From an uncultured Bacteroidales bacterium (GTDB taxonomy: Bacteria; Bacteroidota; Bacteroidia; Bacteroidales; Bacteroidaceae), in contig CADBXO010000005.1 in the NCBI GenBank assembly GCA_902798685.1, forward strand, positions 1 through 64,000: a stretch of 64,000 nt of DNA. Direction: 5' to 3'. A program made the translations under genes and the position numbers. The notes beneath the pieces are model-generated. The model was not told the DNA's origin and searched no databases. It worked only from the letters and a program-made list of their open reading frames with translations. This document shows positions 22,177 to 61,296 of this stretch, piece after piece. Every line of letters starts with the position of its first letter. The stretch's first letter is position 1.

Positions 22177-22929
22177 TTACCAATCTTTTTCCAACGGTTT
22201 CTTAGGCTGAACCTTCATAAGCTGTTCCTGAACTCGTTCCTGAACCTCTTTTTCATCCTGCATTGCAGCTTCAAGAATCTGCTCGGCATTCTCCTGTGAC
22301 ATATCCTGAGGTTGCTCCTGTTGCTGCTGTTGCTGTTCCTGCTGCTGTTGTTGCTGTTGTTCCTGTTGCTGCTGTTCCTGTTGCTGTTCCTGCTGCTGTT
22401 CCTGTTGTTGCTCCTGCTGCTGTTGCTGTTGCTGTTGCTGTTGGTCCTTGAGCATACGCTGGGCAAGAATCATGTTGTAGCGGGTCTGATCATCCTGAGG
22501 ATTGTTGCGCAGAGCCTGTTTGTACGCCTCTACAGCCTTGTCAAACTGCTCGCACATGTGGTAAACCACGCCGGTGTTGTGATAGGTCTGGGCAAGGTCC
22601 TTCTTGCATTTCTCGAGCTCCTTGGGAGAAGCCTCAGGGTTATCCATCAGTTCTTTCTTCTTAGCTTCAAGGGCGCTGGCCATCTTACTGTACTGCTCAA
22701 CGGCCTCGTTAGGCTTCTGCTGAGCGGTATATGCGTTGCCCAGATTGTAGTATCCCTCAAGGAGTTCCGGATTCATATCCAAAGCCTTAAGGTAATTCTC
22801 CTCGGCCTTGATGAACAGGCTGTCCTCAAACAGATGGTTGCCCTTGCGTACGAACGAACGGTCCGAACGCTGTGCATACGCACCTGCAACGGAAGCTGTC
22901 AAAAGGCAGAACAACAATATCTTTTTCAT
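22177..22929 (-). CDS. batC: BatC-type TPR protein with long Gln/Glu tract
   Basis: The signal peptide MKKILLFCLLTASVAGAYAQ is followed by TPR units (AEENYLKALDMNPELLEGYY; AQTYHNTGVVYHMCEQFDKA). A 44-residue stretch made only of Gln and Glu follows, then a basic C-terminus (KVQPKKPLEKDW). Its place between batB and batD identifies it as BatC. The start overlaps the batB stop as ATGA. The polar tract is encoded by CAG/CAA and GAG/GAA triplets, so it is a trinucleotide-repeat region that may vary in length between strains. Probably periplasmic and a partner-binding scaffold. Confidence 0.88.
   Translation of the reverse strand: MKKILLFCLLTASVAGAYAQRSDRSFVRKGNHLFEDSLFIKAEENYLKALDMNPELLEGYYNLGNAYTAQQKPNEAVEQYSKMASALEAKKKELMDNPEASPKELEKCKKDLAQTYHNTGVVYHMCEQFDKAVEAYKQALRNNPQDDQTRYNMILAQRMLKDQQQQQQQQQQEQQQEQQQEQQQEQQQQEQQQQQQQEQQQQQQEQPQDMSQENAEQILEAAMQDEKEVQERVQEQLMKVQPKKPLEKDW
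22312..22443 (-). repeat. CAG/CAA trinucleotide repeat in batC
   Basis: Forty-four uninterrupted codons on the minus strand encode 37 Gln and 7 Glu, with single Glu codons breaking Gln runs of 10, 3, 3, 3, 4, 7, 6 and 1. Alternation of CAG and CAA makes it an imperfect microsatellite. Long antisense frames rich in Leu, Val or Ala come from it and are not genes. Confidence 0.95.
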
Positions 22930-52137: not shown

Positions 52138-55100
52138 TTAGTAATCACGCTGAACATTATCAATCTTCTGCTGCAGCGCCTTCATACGCTCCTCCTGCAG
52201 GATACGGCGGTACTCGATAGGAGTAACCTGTATGAACTCACCTACATACTGAGCCCAGTTGTCAAGCATCTTCTTGGCCAATGCTGAGCCGGTATATTTG
52301 TAGTGCTTCTCAATCAGTCCGCGCAACTCGTCACGACCGGCCTTGTCCTCAATCAGGTCAAGCTCGATCATATCCATGTTGCAGTAGTAGTCAAAGTCAT
52401 GGTTCTTGTCCCAGACGTAAGCCAGACCGCCTGACATACCTGCGGCGAAGTTACGTCCTGTAGTACCCAGAACAACCACGCGACCGCCGGTCATATACTC
52501 GCAGCAGTGGTCACCTGCGCCCTCAACTACGGCTGTGGCGCCGGAGTTGCGTACAGCGAAACGCTCACCTGCACGACCGTTGATGAATATCTCACCGCTG
52601 GTGGCACCGTAAAGGATTGTGTTACCGGCTATGATGTTCTCAGATGCGTCAAACTTGCTCTCGACGGGCGGGCATATAGCGATGCGGCCACCTGAAAGGC
52701 CCTTTCCTACATAGTCATTAGCCTCACCTTCAAGTTTGAAGTTAACACCCTTCATAAGGAATGCGCCGAAGCTCTGTCCAGCCGATCCCTTGAACTTGAC
52801 GTTGATGGTGTTATCGGCCAGACCGTCATGTCCGTACTTGCTTGCTATCGCACCTGACAGCATTGCACCTGCGGCACGGTCAGTGTTGATTATATCGTAT
52901 GAAAGGTCAACCTTCTTGCCGTTCTCAATGGCATCGGTCGATGCCTTGATGATCTTCTGGTCAAGAATCTGACTCAGGTCATGCTTCTGATCCTCCTTCT
53001 TATAGAGGTCACCGTCTATCTTGGCCAACAGGCGGCTGAAGTCAAGACCGCGGGTCTTATCGTTGAACTTGGCGGTATCAATCTCGATAAGGTCTGTACG
53101 ACCTATGATATCCTCAAACTTGCGGAATCCCATATCGGCCAGCAGTTCCCTTACACCCTCTGCCATATACATGTAGTAGTTGATAAGGTACTGGCTGTGA
53201 CCGCGGAACTTGGCGCGCAGAGCGGGATCCTGTGTTGCAACACCTACAGGGCAGGCGTTTGTATGACACTTACGCATCAGCAAGCATCCCAGAACGATAA
53301 GCTGAGCAGTTCCGAATCCGAACTCGCCTGCACCCAGCAGAGCCATTGAAATGACATCACGCGGGGTCTTGAGCTGTCCGTCAACCTGAACCTCGATCTC
53401 CTTACGCAGACCGTTCAGAACCAGAGTCTGCTGAGTCTCGGAAAGGCCGATTTCAGGTGAGATACCTGCATAACGGATTGATGATGCGGGTGATGCACCT
53501 GTACCGCCCTCAGAGCCTGAGATAACCACCAGGTCAGCCTTTGCCTTGGCAACACCGGCTGCGATGGTACCTACTCCGCTCTCGGCAACCAGCTTGACGC
53601 TGATCTTGGCCTTGGGGTTCACGTTACGCAGATCATAGATCAACTGTGCCAGATCCTCGATTGAGTAGATGTCGTGATGAGGAGGAGGCGAAATCAGAGA
53701 AATTCCGGGAATTGAGTTACGTGTACGGGCAATGATCTCGTTCACCTTGAATCCGGGCAGCTGACCACCCTCACCCGGCTTAGCACCCTGGGCAATCTTG
53801 ATCTGGATCTCCATTGCGTTGACCAGATACTCGGCAGTTACACCGAATCGGCCCGATGCCACCTGCTTGATACGGCTGCTCAGTGATACGCCGTCCACAT
53901 CATTGTGGAAACGGTCGCTGTCCTCACCACCCTCACCGGTATTGCTGCGTGAGTCAAGAGTGTTAAGGGCAATTGCGATAGCCTCGTGAGCCTCCTTGCT
54001 GATGGCACCGAATGACATTGCTGCACCGATAAAGCGCTTGACGATGTTCTCGGCAGGCTCTACCTCATCAATAGAGATGGGGTTGCTCTTGAACTTGAAG
54101 TAGTTACGCAGGAACAGCGGCTCCTGACGGTCGTCAACGATAGAGCAGAATTCCTTGAATTTCTTGTAGCTTCCCAGACGGGTTGCAAGTTGCAATGTTG
54201 AAATGGCCTCAGGTGTCCATGCATGACGTATACCGTCCTTGCGGAATGCATATTGGCCTATGAACGGAAGCACATCATCGGTCTCGGTCTTGCCGAATCC
54301 CTGCTCCTGCATACGCTGGGCGTCCTTGCAGATACCCTCCAGAGTTACACCGCCTACGGTTGATGATGCTGTTCCGAAATACTTGGCCAGAAGCTCCTGG
54401 CTCAAGCCGATAGATTCAAATATCTTGGCACCGCGGTATGAACGTATGGTGCTGATACCCATCTTACTGAGTATCTTCTTAAGGCCCTTGTCGACGGCCT
54501 TGATGTAGTTGTTCTGAGCGGTCTCGTAGTCAAGTTGAATCTCTCCCTTCTTAACAAGATCGTCAATCACTGCAAATGCCATATAGGGGTTGACGGCACT
54601 TGCACCATAGCCCATAAGCAGAGCCACATGCATCACCTCGCGGATCTCACCGCTCTCAACGATAAGAGCAGTCTGGACACGCTTCTGGATTGATACAAGA
54701 TAGTGGTGAATTGCGCTGACGGCAAGAAGTGAAGGAATTGCGGCGTGTGTTTCGTCAATGCCGCGGTCGCTCAGGATAATGTAGTTGATACCTGCATCAA
54801 CTGACTTTTCGGCCTCATGGCAAAGATTTTCTATGGCTTCGGCCATACCCTTGGCACCTTTTGATTTCTCAAACAGGATGGGCAGGACCTCTGTATTGAA
54901 TCCCTTGTAACGGATGTTGCAAAGGGTATCGAGTTCAGTGTTGGTAAGAACCGGCTGCGGCAGACGTACCATCTTGCAGTGGCCCTCGCTGGGTGTAAGG
55001 ATGTTCATGCCTACGGCGCCGATGTACTCGGTCAGTGACATTACAAGCTCCTCACGGATGGGGTCGATAGGCGGGTTGGTAACCTGCGCAAACTGCTGTC

Positions 55101-56601
55101 GGAAGTAGTTAAACAGCAACTGAGGACGGTCAGAAAGGACAGCCAGCTGGGTATCGTTACCCATTGATGAAAGCGGCTCCTGTGCAGTCTGACACATAGG
55201 AACTATTATACGGTCGATATCCTCACGGGTGTAGTCAAAGGCACGCAGACGACGGCTGAACTCAGGCACATCATTCGCAGCCTTACGGCCGCTCTTAAGC
55301 TTACCCAGCTCTACACGTCCGGCACTGAGCCATCCGGCATAGTCAAGTTCGCTTGCAAGAGCATCCTTAACCTCGTTGTTACGGTAAATCTGACCGTTGT
55401 CAGTATCAATAAGGAGAATCTTACCGGGCTGCAGTTTACCCTTCTCCACTACCTTTGATGCATCAACCTGGATGCAACCAACCTCGGATGCCATAATCAG
55501 CATGCCGTCATCGGTAATAAGGTAACGTGCAGGACGCAGACCGTTACGGTCCAGCATACCTCCGGCGTAACGGCCATCAGTAAAGAGCATTGCGGCAGGA
55601 CCGTCCCACGGCTCCATAAGGATTGAATGGTACTCGTAGAATGCCTTCAGCTTGTCGCTTATGGGGTTCTTCTCATTGAATGACTCAGGAATCATCATGG
55701 CCATTGCATGAGGCAGAGACATGCCTGAACGCACAAAGAACTCCAGTGCATTATCGAACGATGCACTGTCGCTCATATCGGGCTGAACGATAGGATGAAT
55801 ATCGCTCACATCGCCCAGAGCCGGTGATGAAAGCACGCTCTCGCGGGCCTCCATCCAACCGCGGTTTCCGCGAATGGTGTTAATCTCACCGTTGTGAGCC
55901 AGCATTCGGAACGGCTGTGCAAGCGGCCATGTGGGGAATGTGTTGGTACTGAAACGGGAATGAACCATAGCAAGTCCGCTCGTAAAGAACGGACTGCTAA
56001 GATCCGGATAGTACTCACGCAACTGGGTTGATGTGAGCATTCCCTTATAGACCATTATGCGGCATGAAAGTGATACGATATAGAAATTACGGTCATCTAT
56101 ACGCTTCTCAGTGTGCTTGCGCACCTTATAAAGAAGAGTCTCCAGACCATCGGCCTCGGATGCACCGGTAATGAATATCTGAACTGTGCGCGGCTCGGTA
56201 GCACGTGCGGCTTCGCCCAGGATATTGCTGTTAACGGGTACTTCACGAACGTTGGTAAGTACAAGTCCCATCTTGGACGCCTCCTCACGGATAATGTCCA
56301 GATACTTGTCACCAAGGGCCTTGTCCTTGGGCAGGAATACGAGTCCTGTTCCGTAACTAAGGCGCTCAGGCACCGGGATACCCTGCAAGAGAATAAACTC
56401 GTGCGGTATCTGGAGTGTGATTCCGGCTCCGTCGCCCGACTTGTTGTCGGCAGCCTCGGCACCACGGTGCTTCATGTTCTCAAGCAGTGTAAGAGCGCTG
56501 TCAACAAGCTGGTGTGTCTTTCCCCCCTTAAGGTTGACCATCATACCTATACCACAGGCATCATGCTCATTCTGAGGGTCGTATAAACCGTATTTTTTCA
56601 T
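52138..56601 (-). CDS. gltB: Glutamate synthase large subunit
   Basis: This 1487-residue GltB transfers the glutamine amide to 2-oxoglutarate. The N-terminal glutaminase has the nucleophile Cys in NEHDACGIGMM after a propeptide of about 15 residues. The FMN/2-oxoglutarate barrel carries KPGEGGQLPG and HHDIYSIEDLAQLIYDLR, and the 3Fe-4S ligands lie in CLLMRKCHTNACPVG. The C-terminal GXGXG beta-helix has repeated units (AGNTILYGATSGEIFINGRA; GGRVVVLGTTGRNFAAGMSG). The length matches bacterial NADPH-type enzymes. It follows glnN by 64 nt. Confidence 0.97.
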   Translation of the reverse strand: MKKYGLYDPQNEHDACGIGMMVNLKGGKTHQLVDSALTLLENMKHRGAEAADNKSGDGAGITLQIPHEFILLQGIPVPERLSYGTGLVFLPKDKALGDKYLDIIREEASKMGLVLTNVREVPVNSNILGEAARATEPRTVQIFITGASEADGLETLLYKVRKHTEKRIDDRNFYIVSLSCRIMVYKGMLTSTQLREYYPDLSSPFFTSGLAMVHSRFSTNTFPTWPLAQPFRMLAHNGEINTIRGNRGWMEARESVLSSPALGDVSDIHPIVQPDMSDSASFDNALEFFVRSGMSLPHAMAMMIPESFNEKNPISDKLKAFYEYHSILMEPWDGPAAMLFTDGRYAGGMLDRNGLRPARYLITDDGMLIMASEVGCIQVDASKVVEKGKLQPGKILLIDTDNGQIYRNNEVKDALASELDYAGWLSAGRVELGKLKSGRKAANDVPEFSRRLRAFDYTREDIDRIIVPMCQTAQEPLSSMGNDTQLAVLSDRPQLLFNYFRQQFAQVTNPPIDPIREELVMSLTEYIGAVGMNILTPSEGHCKMVRLPQPVLTNTELDTLCNIRYKGFNTEVLPILFEKSKGAKGMAEAIENLCHEAEKSVDAGINYIILSDRGIDETHAAIPSLLAVSAIHHYLVSIQKRVQTALIVESGEIREVMHVALLMGYGASAVNPYMAFAVIDDLVKKGEIQLDYETAQNNYIKAVDKGLKKILSKMGISTIRSYRGAKIFESIGLSQELLAKYFGTASSTVGGVTLEGICKDAQRMQEQGFGKTETDDVLPFIGQYAFRKDGIRHAWTPEAISTLQLATRLGSYKKFKEFCSIVDDRQEPLFLRNYFKFKSNPISIDEVEPAENIVKRFIGAAMSFGAISKEAHEAIAIALNTLDSRSNTGEGGEDSDRFHNDVDGVSLSSRIKQVASGRFGVTAEYLVNAMEIQIKIAQGAKPGEGGQLPGFKVNEIIARTRNSIPGISLISPPPHHDIYSIEDLAQLIYDLRNVNPKAKISVKLVAESGVGTIAAGVAKAKADLVVISGSEGGTGASPASSIRYAGISPEIGLSETQQTLVLNGLRKEIEVQVDGQLKTPRDVISMALLGAGEFGFGTAQLIVLGCLLMRKCHTNACPVGVATQDPALRAKFRGHSQYLINYYMYMAEGVRELLADMGFRKFEDIIGRTDLIEIDTAKFNDKTRGLDFSRLLAKIDGDLYKKEDQKHDLSQILDQKIIKASTDAIENGKKVDLSYDIINTDRAAGAMLSGAIASKYGHDGLADNTINVKFKGSAGQSFGAFLMKGVNFKLEGEANDYVGKGLSGGRIAICPPVESKFDASENIIAGNTILYGATSGEIFINGRAGERFAVRNSGATAVVEGAGDHCCEYMTGGRVVVLGTTGRNFAAGMSGGLAYVWDKNHDFDYYCNMDMIELDLIEDKAGRDELRGLIEKHYKYTGSALAKKMLDNWAQYVGEFIQVTPIEYRRILQEERMKALQQKIDNVQRDY

Positions 56602-56652: not shown

Positions 56653-56686
56653 GAATTGTTGCTCATCAGTTGATGAACAACAATTC
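56653..56686 (-). repeat. Inverted repeat centred on the glnN stop codon
   Basis: GAATTGTTG and CAACAATTC flank TCATCA and TGATGA, giving 16-nt arms with a single mismatch (C opposite A) and a 2-nt spacer. The glnN TGA stop lies at the apex. No T-tract follows on the minus strand, so it is more likely an mRNA-processing or stability hairpin between glnN and gltB than a terminator. Confidence 0.7.
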
Positions 56687-58852
56687 ACGATACTTCGGCA
56701 GCGGCCACATATCATTGTCAACCACCTCCTCAAGCTTATCGATGGTCTTACGCAGCGGGAACAGAGACTCGGCAATATCGTGGTAAGCAAGAGCCTTCTC
56801 ATATTCGCCCTCAATTACGTTAGCCTTCTTGCGGGCCTCGACCATATCATCAACCTGAGTCTTGAGTTTGTTAACCAAATCAGAGATCTTGGTAACGAAT
56901 CCCATGCTTACAGCAGCCATATCCTTGTAGTTGTCACCGTAAACATCCTTCATAAGGTCGATGTTCTTGAGCAGCTTGGTCTGATACTCAAGTGCGGCAG
57001 GAATGATGTGGTTGATAGCCATACGACCTGTTACGCGGGCCTCGATCTGTACCTTCTTGGTATATATCTCCCACTTAACCTCGTTGCGGGCCTCAAGTTC
57101 CTTCTCGGTGTAAACACCCAGCTTGGTGAACAACTCGATAGCCTTGGGAGTGGTGAATGACTTGAACATCTCAGGAACGTTGGTCAGAGTATCCAGACCA
57201 CGCTTCTTGGCCTCAGCCTTCCACTCATCGGTATAACCGTTACCGTCAAAGCATACAACATCAATAATGCTCTTGATGATGGGCTTCAGGGTATCCATGA
57301 TGGCTATGTTCAGAGCCTTACCGGCCTTAAGTTCCTTGTCAACATCGGCCTTGAAGGCAATCAGCTGCTCGGCTACGGCTGCGTTCAGAGTGGTCATTGC
57401 ACCAGCGCAGTTTGCGCTTGAACCAACGGCACGGAACTCAAAACGGTTACCGGTGAATGCGAACGGTGATGTACGGTTACGGTCGGTGTTATCAACGAAT
57501 ATCTCAGGAATCTCAACCAGACCTACTGACTTACCCTTCTTGCCGGCAATCTCGATAGGAGTATCGGACGGAACCTCAAGCAGTTTCTTGAGCACGGCAG
57601 TCATTGTACGACCAAGGAAGGCCGATACGATGGCGGGAGGTGCCTCGTTGGCGCCCAGACGGTGAGCGTTGGTAGCGGTTGCGATAGAAGCCTTCAGGAT
57701 ATCGTTGTGCTTCTGTACGGCAGCCAGAACGTTTACAAAGAATGTAACGAACTGCAGGTTACCCATAGCATCCTTACCGGGAGCAAGCAGCAGTGTGCCG
57801 GTATCGGTACCCAGTGACCAGTTGTTGTGCTTACCTGAACCGTTGATACCATCGAACGGCTTCTCGTGGAACAGAACAACGAATCCGTGCTTGCGGGCGA
57901 TGCTGTTCATCACGTTCATCATCTGCTGGTTCTGATCGTTTGAAAGGTTGGTCTCACCGTAGATAGGAGCAAGCTCGAACTGGTTAGGAGCAACCTCGTT
58001 ATGACGTGTCTTAAGAGGAATACCCAGCTTGTAACCGGCAATCTCGATGTCGCGCATGAAAGCGGCAACACGTGAAGGAATGGCACCGAAGTAGTGGTCA
58101 TCCAGCTGCTGGTTCTTTGATGAGGCGTGACCCATCAGTGTGCGGCCTGTAAGCATCAGGTCAGGACGTGCTGCGTAGAGGTCCTCATCAACCAGGAAGT
58201 ACTCCTGCTCCCAACCCAGGTATGAGTATACCTTCTTTACTTTGGGATCAAACAGACGGCAGATAGGCAGAGCGGCGTCGTTTACAGCCTTCAGAGCCTT
58301 CTTAAGAGGAGTCTTGTAATCAAGAGCCTCACCGGTATATGAAATAAATACTGTAGGTATGCAGAGAGTGTCATCCTGTATGAACACAGGTGATGTAGGA
58401 TCCCATGCTGTGTAACCGCGGGCCTCGAAAGTGGCACGGATACCGCCGCTGGGGAATGATGATGCATCAGGCTCCTGCTGTGCAAGTGCTTTGCCGTCGA
58501 AAGTCTCGATCATACCGCCCTTGCCATCGTACTCCATGAATGAGTCGTGCTTCTCGGCAGTACCGTCAGTAAGCGGCTGGAACCAGTGTGTAACATGTGT
58601 TACTCCGTGCTCCATAGCCCAGGTCTTCATACCTGCAGCAACTCCATCAGCAGTCTTGCGGTCCAGAGGCTCGCCATTGTCAATGCAGTTCACAATAGCT
58701 TTGAAGGTCTTGTCATCAAGATACTTGCGCATCTTGTCACGGTTGAACACCAACTCACCGAAGTATTCGGAAGTCTTCACGGCGGGTGTCTCGACTACAG
58801 CAGCCTTCTTCTTGAAAGCATCCTGTATCACATCAAATCTAAGTTCACTCAT
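56666..58852 (-). CDS. glnN: Glutamine synthetase type III
   Basis: This 728-residue GSIII (GlnN type) makes glutamine from glutamate, ammonia and ATP as a large dodecamer. The length and motifs (MPHAMA-type catalytic regions replaced by GSIII forms) fit: VFISYTGEALDYKTPLKKAL, KTRHNEVAPNQFELAPI, HEKPFDGINGSGKHNNWSL, and HRLGANEAPPAIVSAFLG. GSIII is the main glutamine synthetase of Bacteroides (first described in B. fragilis). I used MSELRFDVIQ, where an in-frame extension would cross the leader hairpin. The 350-nt upstream gap holds a possible attenuator. Confidence 0.97.
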   Translation of the reverse strand: MSELRFDVIQDAFKKKAAVVETPAVKTSEYFGELVFNRDKMRKYLDDKTFKAIVNCIDNGEPLDRKTADGVAAGMKTWAMEHGVTHVTHWFQPLTDGTAEKHDSFMEYDGKGGMIETFDGKALAQQEPDASSFPSGGIRATFEARGYTAWDPTSPVFIQDDTLCIPTVFISYTGEALDYKTPLKKALKAVNDAALPICRLFDPKVKKVYSYLGWEQEYFLVDEDLYAARPDLMLTGRTLMGHASSKNQQLDDHYFGAIPSRVAAFMRDIEIAGYKLGIPLKTRHNEVAPNQFELAPIYGETNLSNDQNQQMMNVMNSIARKHGFVVLFHEKPFDGINGSGKHNNWSLGTDTGTLLLAPGKDAMGNLQFVTFFVNVLAAVQKHNDILKASIATATNAHRLGANEAPPAIVSAFLGRTMTAVLKKLLEVPSDTPIEIAGKKGKSVGLVEIPEIFVDNTDRNRTSPFAFTGNRFEFRAVGSSANCAGAMTTLNAAVAEQLIAFKADVDKELKAGKALNIAIMDTLKPIIKSIIDVVCFDGNGYTDEWKAEAKKRGLDTLTNVPEMFKSFTTPKAIELFTKLGVYTEKELEARNEVKWEIYTKKVQIEARVTGRMAINHIIPAALEYQTKLLKNIDLMKDVYGDNYKDMAAVSMGFVTKISDLVNKLKTQVDDMVEARKKANVIEGEYEKALAYHDIAESLFPLRKTIDKLEEVVDNDMWPLPKYRELLFIN

Positions 58853-58891: not shown

Positions 58892-58929
58892 AAAGACGAA
58901 AGGCCAGTCCAAGTGGGCCAGCCTTTTCG
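58892..58929 (-). terminator. Leader hairpin of glnN, possible attenuator terminator
   Basis: On the minus strand CGAAA...GGCTGG pairs with the ...GGCCTTTCG arm as an interrupted 13-bp stem with one bulged A, one mismatch and an ACTT loop. It is followed by TCTTTAAT, a weak T-tract. It lies 40 nt before the glnN ATG. Its 5' arm (GGCTGG) is complementary to CCAGCC at the end of the upstream leader ORF, which would form a competing antiterminator. Confidence 0.55.
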
Positions 58930-58960: not shown

Positions 58961-59068
58961 TTACTCCCCGGCTGGAGAGAGAATAGCCAAACAGCCGCAG
59001 ACATTACGCTTAGGATTGAAACCAACCTCCAGAGCATATCTGAAACCATATTCTATCAACACTTTCAT
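58961..59068 (-). CDS. Short leader ORF upstream of glnN
   Basis: A 35-codon frame starts MKVLIEYGFRYALEVGF and ends with the codons Ser-Pro-Ala-Gly-Glu-stop. It begins about 25-30 nt after a good promoter, with an A/G-rich sequence before the ATG. The final codons contain CCAGCC (able to pair with the downstream hairpin arm), and CGGCTG in the Cys-Gly-Cys codons can pair with the same segment. This is the plan of a translation-coupled attenuator. The peptide has no obvious run of a regulatory amino acid apart from a Cys-Gly-Cys, so what it would sense is unclear. It could alternatively be an independent small protein. Confidence 0.45.
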   Translation of the reverse strand: MKVLIEYGFRYALEVGFNPKRNVCGCLAILSPAGE

Positions 59069-59205: not shown

Positions 59206-60900
59206 TTATTTGTAGGCATTTTCATGTACACCCTTTACTGCACGACCGCTCGGATCGTTCAGTTTGCGGAAACTTGCATCCCATTTCAGAGCCTCAGCAG
59301 TAGAGCAAGCTACGCTTGGTACGCTGGGTACGCACATGGCTGCTGATGCGCTTGGGAAATGCTCCTCAAATATGCTGCGATAGTAATATTCCTCCTTGTT
59401 CATGGGAGTGTTGATGGGGAAACGCTCCTCGGCATGAGCCATCTGCTCATCGGTTACTGCGGCAGCGGTAATCTCCTTCAGAGTGTCAATCCAACTGTAA
59501 CCTACTCCATCGCTGAACTGCTCCTTCTGGCGCCATGCAACGCTCTCGGGCAACATATCGGCAAAAGCCTCACGAACCACACGCTTCTCAATCTCATGAC
59601 CCGGGCACATCTTAGCCTTGGGGTTCATGCGCATTGCAACATCCAGGAACTCCTTGTCCAGGAAAGGTACTCGGCCCTCAACGCCCCATGCTGCCAGTGA
59701 CTTGTTTGCACGCAGGCAGTCATAAAGGTGCAGTTTGGAGAGCTTACGTACAGTTTCCTCATGAAATGCCTGGGCATCGGGAGCCTTGTGGAAATAGAGA
59801 TAACCTCCAAATACCTCATCGGCCCCCTCGCCACTCAGCACCATCTTGATTCCCATACTGCGTATCACGCGGGCAAGCAGGTACATGGGAGTGCTGGCAC
59901 GTACCGTGGTAACATCATATGTCTCAATGAAGTATATCACGTCACGAATGGCATCCAGTCCCTCCTGGACTGTATAGTTGATTTCATGGTGTACTGTACC
60001 TATGTGTTCGGCAACCTCGCGAGCCTTAGCCAGATCCGGAGCACCCTTCAGACCAACTGCAAACGAGTGCAGACGCGGCCACCATGCCTCCTGCTGGTCA
60101 TCGGTCTCAACACGGCGTGCAGCGTTTTTCTTTGCTATGGCCGATATCACCGAACTGTCCAGACCGCCCGACAGAAGCACTCCGTAAGGAACGTCACACA
60201 TAAGCTGACGCTTTACGGCAGCCTCAAGGGCATCATGGAGTTCCTCTATGCTGGCGTCGTTGTCCTTGACAGCCTCATACTTGAACCAGTCACGGGTCCA
60301 CCAGCGCTCAATATGTCCGGTGCGGCTGCTCAGGAAATGTCCGGGCAGGAACGGCTCGTACTCAGGGCAGATACCCTCAAGAGCCTTCAGCTCGCTGGCT
60401 ACGCAGATATGTCCTTCCTTATCCTTGCCTATGTAAAGAGGAATAACGCCTATCGGATCACGGGCAATCAGGTATTCATCACGCTCGGCATCATAAAGAG
60501 CAAAGGCAAAAATACCGTTCAGGCGCTCCAGCATGCGGATAAAGTCCTCCTGGCTGCCGCCTGCACGAACTGCATCGCGGTAAAGCGCCAGGATAACCTC
60601 GCAGTCACTGCCGGTACTGAATGTGTATCGGCCCTCATACTCACGGCGTATTGCCTGATGGTTGTAAATCTCACCGTTAACGGCCAGCACCTGCAGACGG
60701 TCCTCACTGAACAGAGGCTGACCGCCCGACTGGGGATCGACAATACTCAAACGCTCATGAGCCAGTATGGCAGAGCCTCCGCACCAGATACCGCTCCAGT
60801 CCGGACCGCGATGACGAATCCTGCGACTCATTTCCAACGCACGCTGTCGTAACTGCTCTGACTGCTCCTTAATCCTGAAGATTGAAACTATTCCACACAT
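59206..60900 (-). CDS. asnB: Asparagine synthetase B (glutamine-hydrolysing)
   Basis: AsnB makes asparagine from aspartate, glutamine and ATP. Cys2 (MCGIVSIF) is the glutaminase nucleophile, with RHRGPDWSG and VNGEIYNHQ completing that half. The synthetase half has the PPi loop LLSGGLDSSVISAI and VLSGEGADEVFGGYLYFHKA. The 564-residue length is normal. It is preceded by a leader of about 230 nt with an Asn/Gln-rich frame and a strong terminator, so it is very likely controlled by attenuation. The downstream glnN gene has its own promoter. Confidence 0.97.
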   Translation of the reverse strand: MCGIVSIFRIKEQSEQLRQRALEMSRRIRHRGPDWSGIWCGGSAILAHERLSIVDPQSGGQPLFSEDRLQVLAVNGEIYNHQAIRREYEGRYTFSTGSDCEVILALYRDAVRAGGSQEDFIRMLERLNGIFAFALYDAERDEYLIARDPIGVIPLYIGKDKEGHICVASELKALEGICPEYEPFLPGHFLSSRTGHIERWWTRDWFKYEAVKDNDASIEELHDALEAAVKRQLMCDVPYGVLLSGGLDSSVISAIAKKNAARRVETDDQQEAWWPRLHSFAVGLKGAPDLAKAREVAEHIGTVHHEINYTVQEGLDAIRDVIYFIETYDVTTVRASTPMYLLARVIRSMGIKMVLSGEGADEVFGGYLYFHKAPDAQAFHEETVRKLSKLHLYDCLRANKSLAAWGVEGRVPFLDKEFLDVAMRMNPKAKMCPGHEIEKRVVREAFADMLPESVAWRQKEQFSDGVGYSWIDTLKEITAAAVTDEQMAHAEERFPINTPMNKEEYYYRSIFEEHFPSASAAMCVPSVPSVACSTAEALKWDASFRKLNDPSGRAVKGVHENAYK

Positions 60901-60943: not shown

Positions 60944-60977
60944 CAAAAAAAAGACTGATCAAATTGACCAGTCTTTT
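60944..60977 (-). terminator. Attenuator terminator in the asnB leader
   Basis: On the minus strand AAAAGACTGGTC pairs with GATCAGTCTTTT (12 bp, one G-U) around an AATTT loop, directly followed by eight T residues in total. It lies 43 nt before the asnB ATG and downstream of the asnB promoter, so it would end transcription prematurely. Its 5' arm CTGGTCAA can instead pair with TTGGCCAG at 61018-61025, forming an antiterminator. Confidence 0.85.
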
Positions 60978-60989
60978 ATGTTTTGTTCT

Positions 60990-61103
60990 TTATATACCTG
61001 AATGATTAGCTTTCCCGCTGGCCAAAAGAAGTAACCATCCGAACCTGATTATTATTCTGGTTCTGATTCTGCTGGTTATTCTGATTATTATTGGCCTAGC
61101 CAT
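60990..61103 (-). CDS. asnB leader region with frame-shifted Asn/Gln codon run
   Basis: The only ATG with an A-rich upstream region opens a 37-codon frame (MARPIIIRITSRIRTRIIIR ...). In the -1 frame relative to that ATG, positions 61045-61092 read 16 consecutive codons for Asn (10) and Gln (6), followed by VRMVTSFGQRES and a stop at 61006-61008. That frame has a TAG two codons before the run and no start codon. The Asn/Gln run is far more sensible for an asparagine synthetase leader than the Ile/Arg-rich ATG frame. Either one base is missing or extra near the start (mutation or sequence error), or a ribosomal -1 slip joins the frames. Confidence 0.6.
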   Translation of the reverse strand: MARPIIIRITSRIRTRIIIRFGWLLLLASGKANHSGI

Positions 61104-61132: not shown

Positions 61133-61164
61133 CAAAATTACACACTCTATTTGGAACCACCAAA
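61133..61164 (-). promoter_or_regulatory. asnB promoter
   Basis: On the minus strand TTTG is followed after exactly 20 nt by TAATTTTG, the best full -33/-7 match in the window. The transcript would start near 61127, about 24 nt before the leader ATG. Confidence 0.75.
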
Positions 61165-61254: not shown

Positions 61255-61296
61255 AAAATGATACAAATGGGGTCAGGCCCCAATTGTACCATCTTT
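61255..61296. repeat. Palindromic element C between asnB and mtgA
   Basis: The arms ATGATACAAATGGGG and CCCCAATTGTACCAT form an imperfect palindrome around a TCAGG centre. On the minus strand it ends CCCCATTTGTATCATTTT, nearly the same as element A. It lies between two divergent genes, upstream of both promoters, so it cannot be an ordinary terminator for either. The flanking bases 61165-61254 hold nothing further I can support. Confidence 0.7.

Follow-up and report, generated by a model that had tools for sequence, protein, structure and literature searches.

The asparagine synthase gene asnB lies on the minus strand of the window, the 64,000-nt stretch of DNA from an uncultured Bacteroidales bacterium (contig CADBXO010000005.1) that was analysed here. 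A sequence-only reading had placed before it a minus-strand promoter, 16 Asn/Gln codons (10 Asn and 6 Gln), the segment TTGGCCAG, a stop codon and a terminator with a T-tract, and all of these, with asnB itself, are found where that reading put them. The promoter motif was matched to what we take to be the Bacteroidota-type consensus. The features of the leader, in order of transcription, are as follows.

61133-61164, minus strand: promoter, with TTTG at 61164-61161, a 20-nt spacer and the -7 element TAATTTTG at 61140-61133
60990-61103, minus strand: ATG-initiated leader ORF of the window, a frameshifted leader with Ile/Arg codons (MARPIIIRITSRIRTRIIIRFG...)
61045-61092, minus strand: uninterrupted run of 16 Asn/Gln codons (NNNQNNQQNQNQNNNQ), 10 Asn and 6 Gln
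61000-61040, minus strand: predicted protector hairpin P3, with arms GGATGGTTA at 61040-61032 and TAATCATTC at 61008-61000 (RNAalifold consensus of 17 relatives)
61018-61025, minus strand: region 2, TTGGCCAG, ending 9 nt before the stop of the Asn/Gln frame
61008-61006, minus strand: TAA of the Asn/Gln frame
60945-60977, minus strand: intrinsic terminator, with a 13-bp stem (60977-60949) and an 8-T tract at 60952-60945
60964-60971, minus strand: region 3, CTGGTCAA, candidate partner of region 2 (antiterminator) or of region 4 (terminator)
60960-60953, minus strand: region 4, GATCAGTC, in the terminator, pairing with region 3
59206-60900, minus strand: asnB, glutamine-hydrolysing asparagine synthase B (NF006949, 904.8 bits, cut-off 499), with its ATG at 60900

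The 16-codon run is beyond chance: when the window was shuffled 60 times with its dinucleotides preserved, Asn/Gln codons never stood more than 5 in a row. The sole other window site with at least 9 Asn/Gln per 16 codons is a long glutamine-rich stretch at 22327-22467 on the minus strand, with QQQQEQQQ repeats in a frame that is open across the 70 codons shown. A small second terminator-like hairpin, TGGGGCCTGACCCCA, is found upstream of the asnB promoter at 61268-61282, also on the minus strand.

The window leader had been thought to translate the run, which its reading frame contradicts. A TAG at 61098-61096 closes the Asn/Gln frame, with a single codon, GCC, separating it from the run, and downstream of this TAG the frame contains no start codon. 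A different frame begins at the ATG at 61103, reads MARPIIIRITSRIRTRIIIRFGWLLLLASGKANHSGI and a stop, and ends at 60990; the run is out of frame with this ATG in the window and in frame with it in relatives. When aligned with three related leaders (L003, L005 and L023), which begin ATG GCT AGA ATT TTG GCA TAC ACC GCC AAT AAT AAT CAG..., the window is found to lack 16 nt just after ATGGCTAG, and it is because these are missing that its Asn/Gln frame has no start codon and its ATG reads Ile and Arg codons. The hexamer GGCCAA at the start of the run, proposed as region 1, is the deletion junction, and alignment A1 does not have it at this place in any of its 18 other leaders. The 16-nt gap could be a true allele or an assembly error.

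It is highly unlikely that the window copy works as it stands, with the frameshifted ORF sensing Ile/Arg or with some non-standard route into the Asn/Gln frame. It is true that the ATG frame stays open across the run, with many ATA/AGA codons, and that the downstream RNA folds as in relatives, but the stop of that frame lies 16 nt past the usual position, so that a ribosome terminating there would leave region 2 uncovered, and the deletion is seen solely in the window among 20 genus asnB leaders and may itself be misassembly. The window's own asnB leader is probably broken and, barring misassembly as the cause of the gap, would be expected to have lost its response to Asn and Gln. The glnK-amtB leader in the same genome is intact.

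In a search for AsnB, 37 of 61 genomes matched at E <= 0.001, with 22 same-genus genomes, the window's included, giving a good match (G018 is counted here though matched in two pieces). The genus assemblies are fragmented drafts. An Asn/Gln-rich frame and a terminator are present upstream of asnB in these close relatives, and 18 of 20 same-genus asnB leaders have an intact leader ORF, for example MAKVLAYANNNQNNQNQNQNNQVRMVTSFGQRES and a stop, the two others being that of G005, with a 1-nt insertion in the run, and that of the window. The proposal of a ribosome-stalling Asn/Gln attenuator before asnB, which the lack of such a frame or terminator in close relatives would have overturned, withstood this comparison and finds good support in relatives, while the copy from which it was drawn is frame-broken. 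A translatable short ORF with pathway-relevant codons, which the window copy lacks, is likewise found in leaders before glnK, glmS, pyrG and purF. In G033, asnB has no leader of its own but follows amtB, and a leader sits before the upstream glnK; the asnB of G019, with 319 nt of contig upstream, has no strong model match. On contig C40 of G018 (L193), both asnB and glnK are internally deleted, with partial matches and in-frame stops, and the leaders of both are intact, a state that reflects either decay of the genes or misassembly; the completeness of this genome is rated at 100%.

The family to which these leaders belong is wider than asnB. R1, a covariance model made from the asnB leaders, picked up more copies within the genus, which are homologous leaders before other genes. 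With a combined model (R2), the 37 genus genomes gave 62 matches of at least 88.9 bits in 24 genomes, with the next match at 35.1 bits. By our assignment, 22 of the 62 precede glnK, 20 asnB, 13 glmS, 5 pyrG, 1 purF and 1 an unknown-glnK-amtB cluster. Since R2 was built from some of the same sequences, its scores are partly high by construction, which does not hold for the gap in scores or for the target genes. The next gene could be seen in 61 of the 62 cases and belongs to nitrogen or glutamine metabolism or to its operon; in the other (G020) the contig ends within the leader, which was assigned to glnK by its peptide. Gene identities come from family searches on representatives, in which the P-II protein fell below the NCBIfam cut-offs but above the Pfam cut-off. 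Typical leader peptides are MFIGFKNITTVQLNNNQQQNNQNQNNNQVPMVIPFDRSGM before glnK-amtB, MEGKVTYNCLSNQMNDKQNLNNNQVPVSPCCFTSRII before glmS and MESKVTYNCLSNQMNDKQNVNQNLNDNQVLNNCCCSSSRTM before pyrG. With members also preceding gltB and glnN, as described below, the asnB element of the sequence-only reading is one of a family.

Some members of the family depart from the common form. In G019 (C67, L188), a leader heads a three-gene cluster of a 232-amino-acid protein, with no match in NCBIfam (1e-15) or Pfam (1e-5), followed by glnK and amtB, both read by eye. In the same genome (C3, L369), a Gln-only leader, MMLKRVKYSQQPQQKQQDQHFQQVSAFFCCK, with a hairpin precedes a gene for a circularly permuted ATP-grasp protein (PF14403), which is not an obvious target of nitrogen control. 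At the glmS loci of G000 (the genome of the window), G018, G011 and G012, a terminator remains but no leader ORF has an Asn/Gln run, and the glmS leader ORF of G009 is shortened by an early stop (these run-less or shortened leaders being at loci L267, L265, L372, L386 and L378). At such glmS loci the sensor has been lost and the terminator kept.

Promoter elements lie before the leaders and not after them. Among 19 asnB leaders, a full promoter motif is found within 130 nt upstream in 17 and a -7 element in all 19 (in L007 at -107), and no -7 element lies between the terminator and asnB in any of the 19. Across the family, 59 of 61 leaders could be scored, the other 2 having no terminator or gene to score; in 58 of the 59 there is a -7 element ahead of the leader, and in 58 the stretch from terminator to gene is free of one, each count having its single exception in G018. 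The gap from terminator to gene is 8-75 nt outside G018. The leader frame is under purifying selection that is strongest in glmS, where pN/pS is 0.23 and the two remaining frames give 1.10 and 1.24 (12 leaders), followed by glnK at 0.45 versus 0.70 and 1.00 (21 leaders), and weakest in asnB, where the signal is weak at 0.62 versus 0.76 and 0.87 (17 leaders). A test on indel lengths in the leader ORF was dropped, as 26 of 254 pairwise gaps came out at 2 or 5 nt through alignment placement and the divisibility of the lengths is trivial by construction.

Selection on the frame, together with conserved peptide ends (VRMVTSFGQRES, CCFTSRII), would also be expected if the ORF encoded a small Asn/Gln-rich protein that is functional in itself, ended by a terminator of its own, and asnB were transcribed separately. 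We regard this as improbable, given that a -7 element from which the gene might be transcribed separately is missing in the 58 of 59 cases above, that the run is common to the paralogous peptides and their C-termini follow the sequence of region 2, and that 61 of the 62 strong genus matches stand before a nitrogen or glutamine gene or its operon.

The architecture of the genus leaders, shown by comparing their sequences, is a promoter element, a short Asn/Gln ORF whose run mostly ends ...NNNQ or ...QNNQ, region 2 (core CCRG; in asnB inside a hairpin), and then region 3 (CYGG) and region 4, forming a terminator right before the gene. For 17 intact asnB leaders, RNAalifold gave four helices, P1 at the run start, P2 at the run end, P3 just after the run and P4 as the terminator. 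All 629 cells of P1-P4 are paired, and the covariation score of 0.089 is above all 500 shuffles (mean 0.056); the two double-sided pair changes are no excess over shuffles (181/500). P3 pairs GGAUGGUUA with UAAUCAUUC, with every cell paired and an outer pair that is GC in 10, UG in 4 and UA in 3 leaders. In the window it lies directly 3' of the Asn/Gln run and encloses region 2. The conserved predicted competitor of region 2 is this hairpin, rather than a region 1 at the start of the run as had been proposed. A pairing of regions 1 and 2 was considered in the 17 relatives, where TTGGY upstream of the run can pair with region 2 (95.1% of cells) and also takes part in a local hairpin with the run start; covariation does not separate these alternatives, and neither is the consensus competitor from folding.

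Compensatory changes, which the sequence-only reading had looked to as a check, are found in one helix of the switch and not in the other. In 27 paralogous leaders, the terminator (3:4) has 98.1% of cells paired, versus 88.5% when shuffled, and a covariation score of 0.437 versus 0.238, reached by 0 of 500 shuffles, although one of the five measures counted (further pair types) lies below the shuffles. Pairing of regions 2 and 3 hardly varies in the asnB leaders (96.6% of cells paired), and its four-pair core is formed in 27 of the 27 paralogous leaders, with no covariation beyond shuffles in that set (77.8% paired, shuffled mean 79.5%). The candidate antiterminator is conserved without covariation, and the terminators covary strongly. 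An intrinsic terminator stands between leader ORF and gene, the script finding none in 2 of 42 leaders, one of which is cut by a contig end. The geometry is constant in the 27 genus leaders, with 7-13 nt from the region 2 core to the stop and 23-29 nt from the run end to the core. This constant spacing in the genus, the conserved complementarity of regions 2, 3 and 4, and the promoter element that is found before the leader and not after the terminator all argue for the stalling attenuator.

Folding was modelled first with RNA on both sides of the ribosome and then with the 3' RNA alone, a simplification chosen after the first result. With the 5' RNA allowed to pair, mean P(2:3) was 0.21 for a ribosome on the last run codon, 0.40 for one on the first Asn and 0.13 without a ribosome, which is weak model support for a switch. 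With 3' RNA only, P(2:3) in 17 of 17 asnB leaders was 0.00 at the stop and averaged 0.95 (0.83-1.00) at the last run codon, falling at earlier stalls to 0.24 six codons before the run end, 0.60 ten before and 0.52 when the stall is at the first Asn. Even a ribosome at the stop left region 3 of these asnB leaders only 0.76 free on average before region 4 is made. In the 3'-RNA model all 27 leaders have a P(2:3) of 0.00 when the ribosome is at the stop, and 21 of them reach at least 0.72 when it is at the run end; switching is absent for five of six glmS leaders and the G019 leader. Given the peak in P(2:3) at the last run codons, the final and most conserved codons should be the sensors.

These features are consistent with a mechanism that would operate as follows. 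When Asn-tRNA and Gln-tRNA are charged, the ribosome would reach the stop and cover region 2, and the 3:4 helix would terminate transcription. When Asn or Gln is short, the ribosome would stall near the run end, opening the protector hairpin and freeing region 2, which would then capture region 3 and allow RNA polymerase to read into asnB. The same read-through may apply to glnK-amtB, glmS, pyrG, purF, gltB, glnN and amtB. The gene set, which combines ammonium uptake and assimilation with glutamine-dependent amidotransferases, fits a sensor of nitrogen status. Asparaginyl- and glutaminyl-tRNA synthetases (AsnS and GlnS) each pass the cut-off in 34 of the 37 genomes of the genus, so that the level of charging should reflect free Asn and Gln.

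In a variant of this mechanism that we hold to be possible but rather unlikely, Asn alone or Gln alone would be sensed and the other codon tolerated, as might be suggested by amtB leaders of a second bacterial family (below) that have Asn codons and no Gln, and by the G019 leader before the ATP-grasp gene, with Gln and no Asn codons. The genus asnB and glnK leaders, however, contain both Asn and Gln codons, and AAT AAT CAG at the end of the run is near-invariant across gene families, the exceptions in alignment A3 being one glmS and two pyrG leaders.

A riboswitch that binds a metabolite or tRNA, of the glutamine riboswitch or T-box type, could in principle do the sensing, with the ORF incidental. 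The complete pairing of P1-P4 in the 17 asnB leaders would suit such an RNA, and the cyanobacterial glnA RNAs control a similar gene set, as stated in part of the text of PMC2864571. We think it very improbable, as Rfam at the gathering score gave no match in the leader or in eight leader-bearing loci, and as little is common to all gene families outside the run, region 2 and the terminator. What is shared beyond these is limited to subsets, with the P3 5' arm common to asnB, purF and glnK, and NCLSNQMNDKQ or close variants common to glmS and most pyrG leaders. Rfam matched two tRNAs in the window and nothing else at the gathering score, with a single sub-threshold sRNA match near the window leader. 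The T-box covariance model had no match at the gathering score, nor at E up to 1 near the leader, and the Rfam models for glnA/Downstream-peptide and RF01692 had none to the elements described here.

Beyond the genus, the element is sparse. In 101 family genomes, R2 matched 33 at E <= 0.01 and 7 strongly (at least 58 bits), the latter being G000 and G018 of the genus and five genomes in three other genera, with leaders before glnK and asnB in G412, before glnK and gltB in G349, and before glnK in G342, G388 and G405. A glnK test on 121 genomes, of which 63 matched, covered 61 upstream regions from 60 genomes (G018, G417 and G429 left out; one region shortened to 143 nt where its contig ends), and an Asn/Gln leader with a terminator was found in 8 of the 61, showing that the element is patchy even within genera. 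Among 80 asnB loci, none of the 75 from outside the genus passed the test for an adjacent Asn/Gln leader ORF plus terminator (within 700 nt, plus strand); four of these had weak stop-to-stop stretches with 6-7 of 12 codons, and one non-genus asnB leader, that in G412, was found later. Spacing is also looser outside the genus, where by our reading of the sequences the stop follows the region 2 core by 2 to 31 nt or, in genus g196, precedes it by 5 nt; this slightly lowers confidence in the attenuator mechanism.

An order sample of 295 genomes brought up a second bacterial family with such leaders, in which G265 has Asn-rich leaders before glnN and amtB. Of 20 genomes of this family, 15 had a match at E <= 1e-4. 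Inspection of 14 further places gave 13 glnN/amtB leaders (genes by eye), 11 of them with a terminator by script, and one that is unrelated; several of the leader sequences are identical or near-identical. In the window, glnN lies downstream of asnB, and its region holds the following features.

58961-59068, minus strand: glnN leader ORF (MKVLIEYGFRYALEVGFNPKRNVCGCLAILSPAGE and a stop), with an architecture like that of the asnB leader and no Asn/Gln run; region 2, CCAGCC, at 58975-58970
58898-58926, minus strand: terminator-like hairpin AAAGGCTGGCC...GGACTGGCCTTT between the glnN leader and glnN, with a weak T tract
56666-58852, minus strand: glnN, type III glutamine synthetase (Pfam GSIII_N PF12437, 256.5 bits)
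52138-56601, minus strand: gltB, glutamate synthase large subunit (NF008730, 1736.7 bits)

A leader is present in 12 of the 19 genus loci in which a glnN start was found and in none of the other 7. Six of these 12 leaders have an Asn-rich segment, such as NAGNNNSGNWNR in L010. The terminator script accepted 0 of the 12 hairpins, we guess because the T tract is weak, which makes control of glnN less certain in the genus than in the second family.

Several other matches fell outside the family. Besides the window's genome, R1 matched seven genomes of the order (E 5e-5 to 9e-4), six of these matches resembling gene ends or a tRNA-adjacent terminator. The seventh, L153 (G320 C69, about 1521-1660 of the locus), is a Lys-rich short ORF, MKINKKYNKQKKILSGGQALLY, with a terminator before an amino-acid-kinase/ACT gene (PF00696, PF22468) that is aspartokinase-like, and may represent a Lys attenuator of a different family in the order. 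R2 matches in G261, G232 and G053 are gene-end terminators, a pattern match in G014 is due to chance, and the weaker R2 matches that were inspected (about 36 bits and below) were mostly gene-end terminators, the exceptions being a degenerate glnN leader, the run-less glmS loci, the Gln-only G019 leader and a Trp leader in G350. The last (C1, L275) is a Trp-codon leader, MYQNQNTYWWWRNSRPQTS, with a terminator before a trpB-like gene (by eye).

Taken as a whole, the analysis makes it likely that the element controls transcription by ribosome-mediated attenuation and that it belongs to a paralogous family forming a nitrogen regulon in Bacteroidales. Attenuators of the trp/his type, from Proteobacteria and Actinobacteria, similarly combine a short ORF of regulatory codons with mutually exclusive hairpins, which are predicted for the element here, and an intrinsic terminator, and have a stop placed so that the terminating ribosome covers region 2. 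In contrast to these, the element described here would sense Asn and/or Gln and is found, as paralogues, before many nitrogen operons in Bacteroidales. Asn/Gln-specific T-boxes of Firmicutes couple tRNA charging to termination by binding the tRNA directly, with no leader peptide. Both they and the elements here would tie tRNA charging to termination, but the T-box does so without a leader peptide. The Bacteroid-trp RNA motif is a trp leader. This motif (RF01692) is a further cis-regulatory motif of Bacteroidetes, as given in part of the text of PMC2864571, and is akin to the Trp-codon leader found here in a genome of the same bacterial family as the window; it differs from the Asn/Gln elements in having other genes, other regulatory codons and no RF01692 match to them. 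The glnA RNA and Downstream-peptide motifs of cyanobacteria precede similar genes, for PII, glutamine synthetase, glutamate synthase and ammonium transporters (excerpt of PMC2864571), but direct metabolite binding has been suggested for them and they have no Rfam match here.

As of 2010, leader-peptide systems had to the authors' knowledge been shown solely in Proteobacteria and Actinobacteria, ermC aside (PMC2965389, in excerpt). Other work reports sORFs in long 5' UTRs of B. thetaiotaomicron that are reminiscent of attenuation leader peptides (PMC7366714) and, for Flavobacterium, strong clues that amino-acid operons are attenuated through leader peptides (PMC9723704). An Asn/Gln attenuator is not described in the accessible parts of PMC2965389, PMC7366714, PMC9723704, PMC2864571, PMC5552732 or PMC4833913, nor is an Asn/Gln leader attenuator among the open-access literature matches listed, as judged from titles and abstract openings. 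The leader family looks like an undescribed regulon that was found through a broken copy.

How Bacteroidales adjust their nitrogen genes is poorly understood. In Prevotella ruminicola, large nitrogen-dependent changes of glnK, amtB, asnB, glnN-2 and gltBD have been reported, with the direction given inconsistently and no transcriptional regulator named in the sections available (PMC5552732). If the reading given here is true, Asn/Gln-codon attenuators in bacteria related to P. ruminicola would offer a direct and testable mechanism for the same kinds of genes. We lean modestly towards the broader picture of a putative whole nitrogen regulon built on leader peptides, without a dedicated transcription factor, in which charging of tRNA-Asn and tRNA-Gln would be the common read-out and the element would have been copied between operons (glnK-amtB, asnB, glmS, pyrG, purF, gltB and glnN) and lost or broken in single lineages, as for asnB in the window. 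Charging of tRNA would then be a general nitrogen signal, and the copying of one attenuator across operons a way to build a regulon. The rule of a leader run, a region 2 near the stop and a terminator before the gene can be used to find members in other genomes. The carriers are some largely uncultured Bacteroidales, in which a stalled ribosome probably switches the nitrogen genes on.
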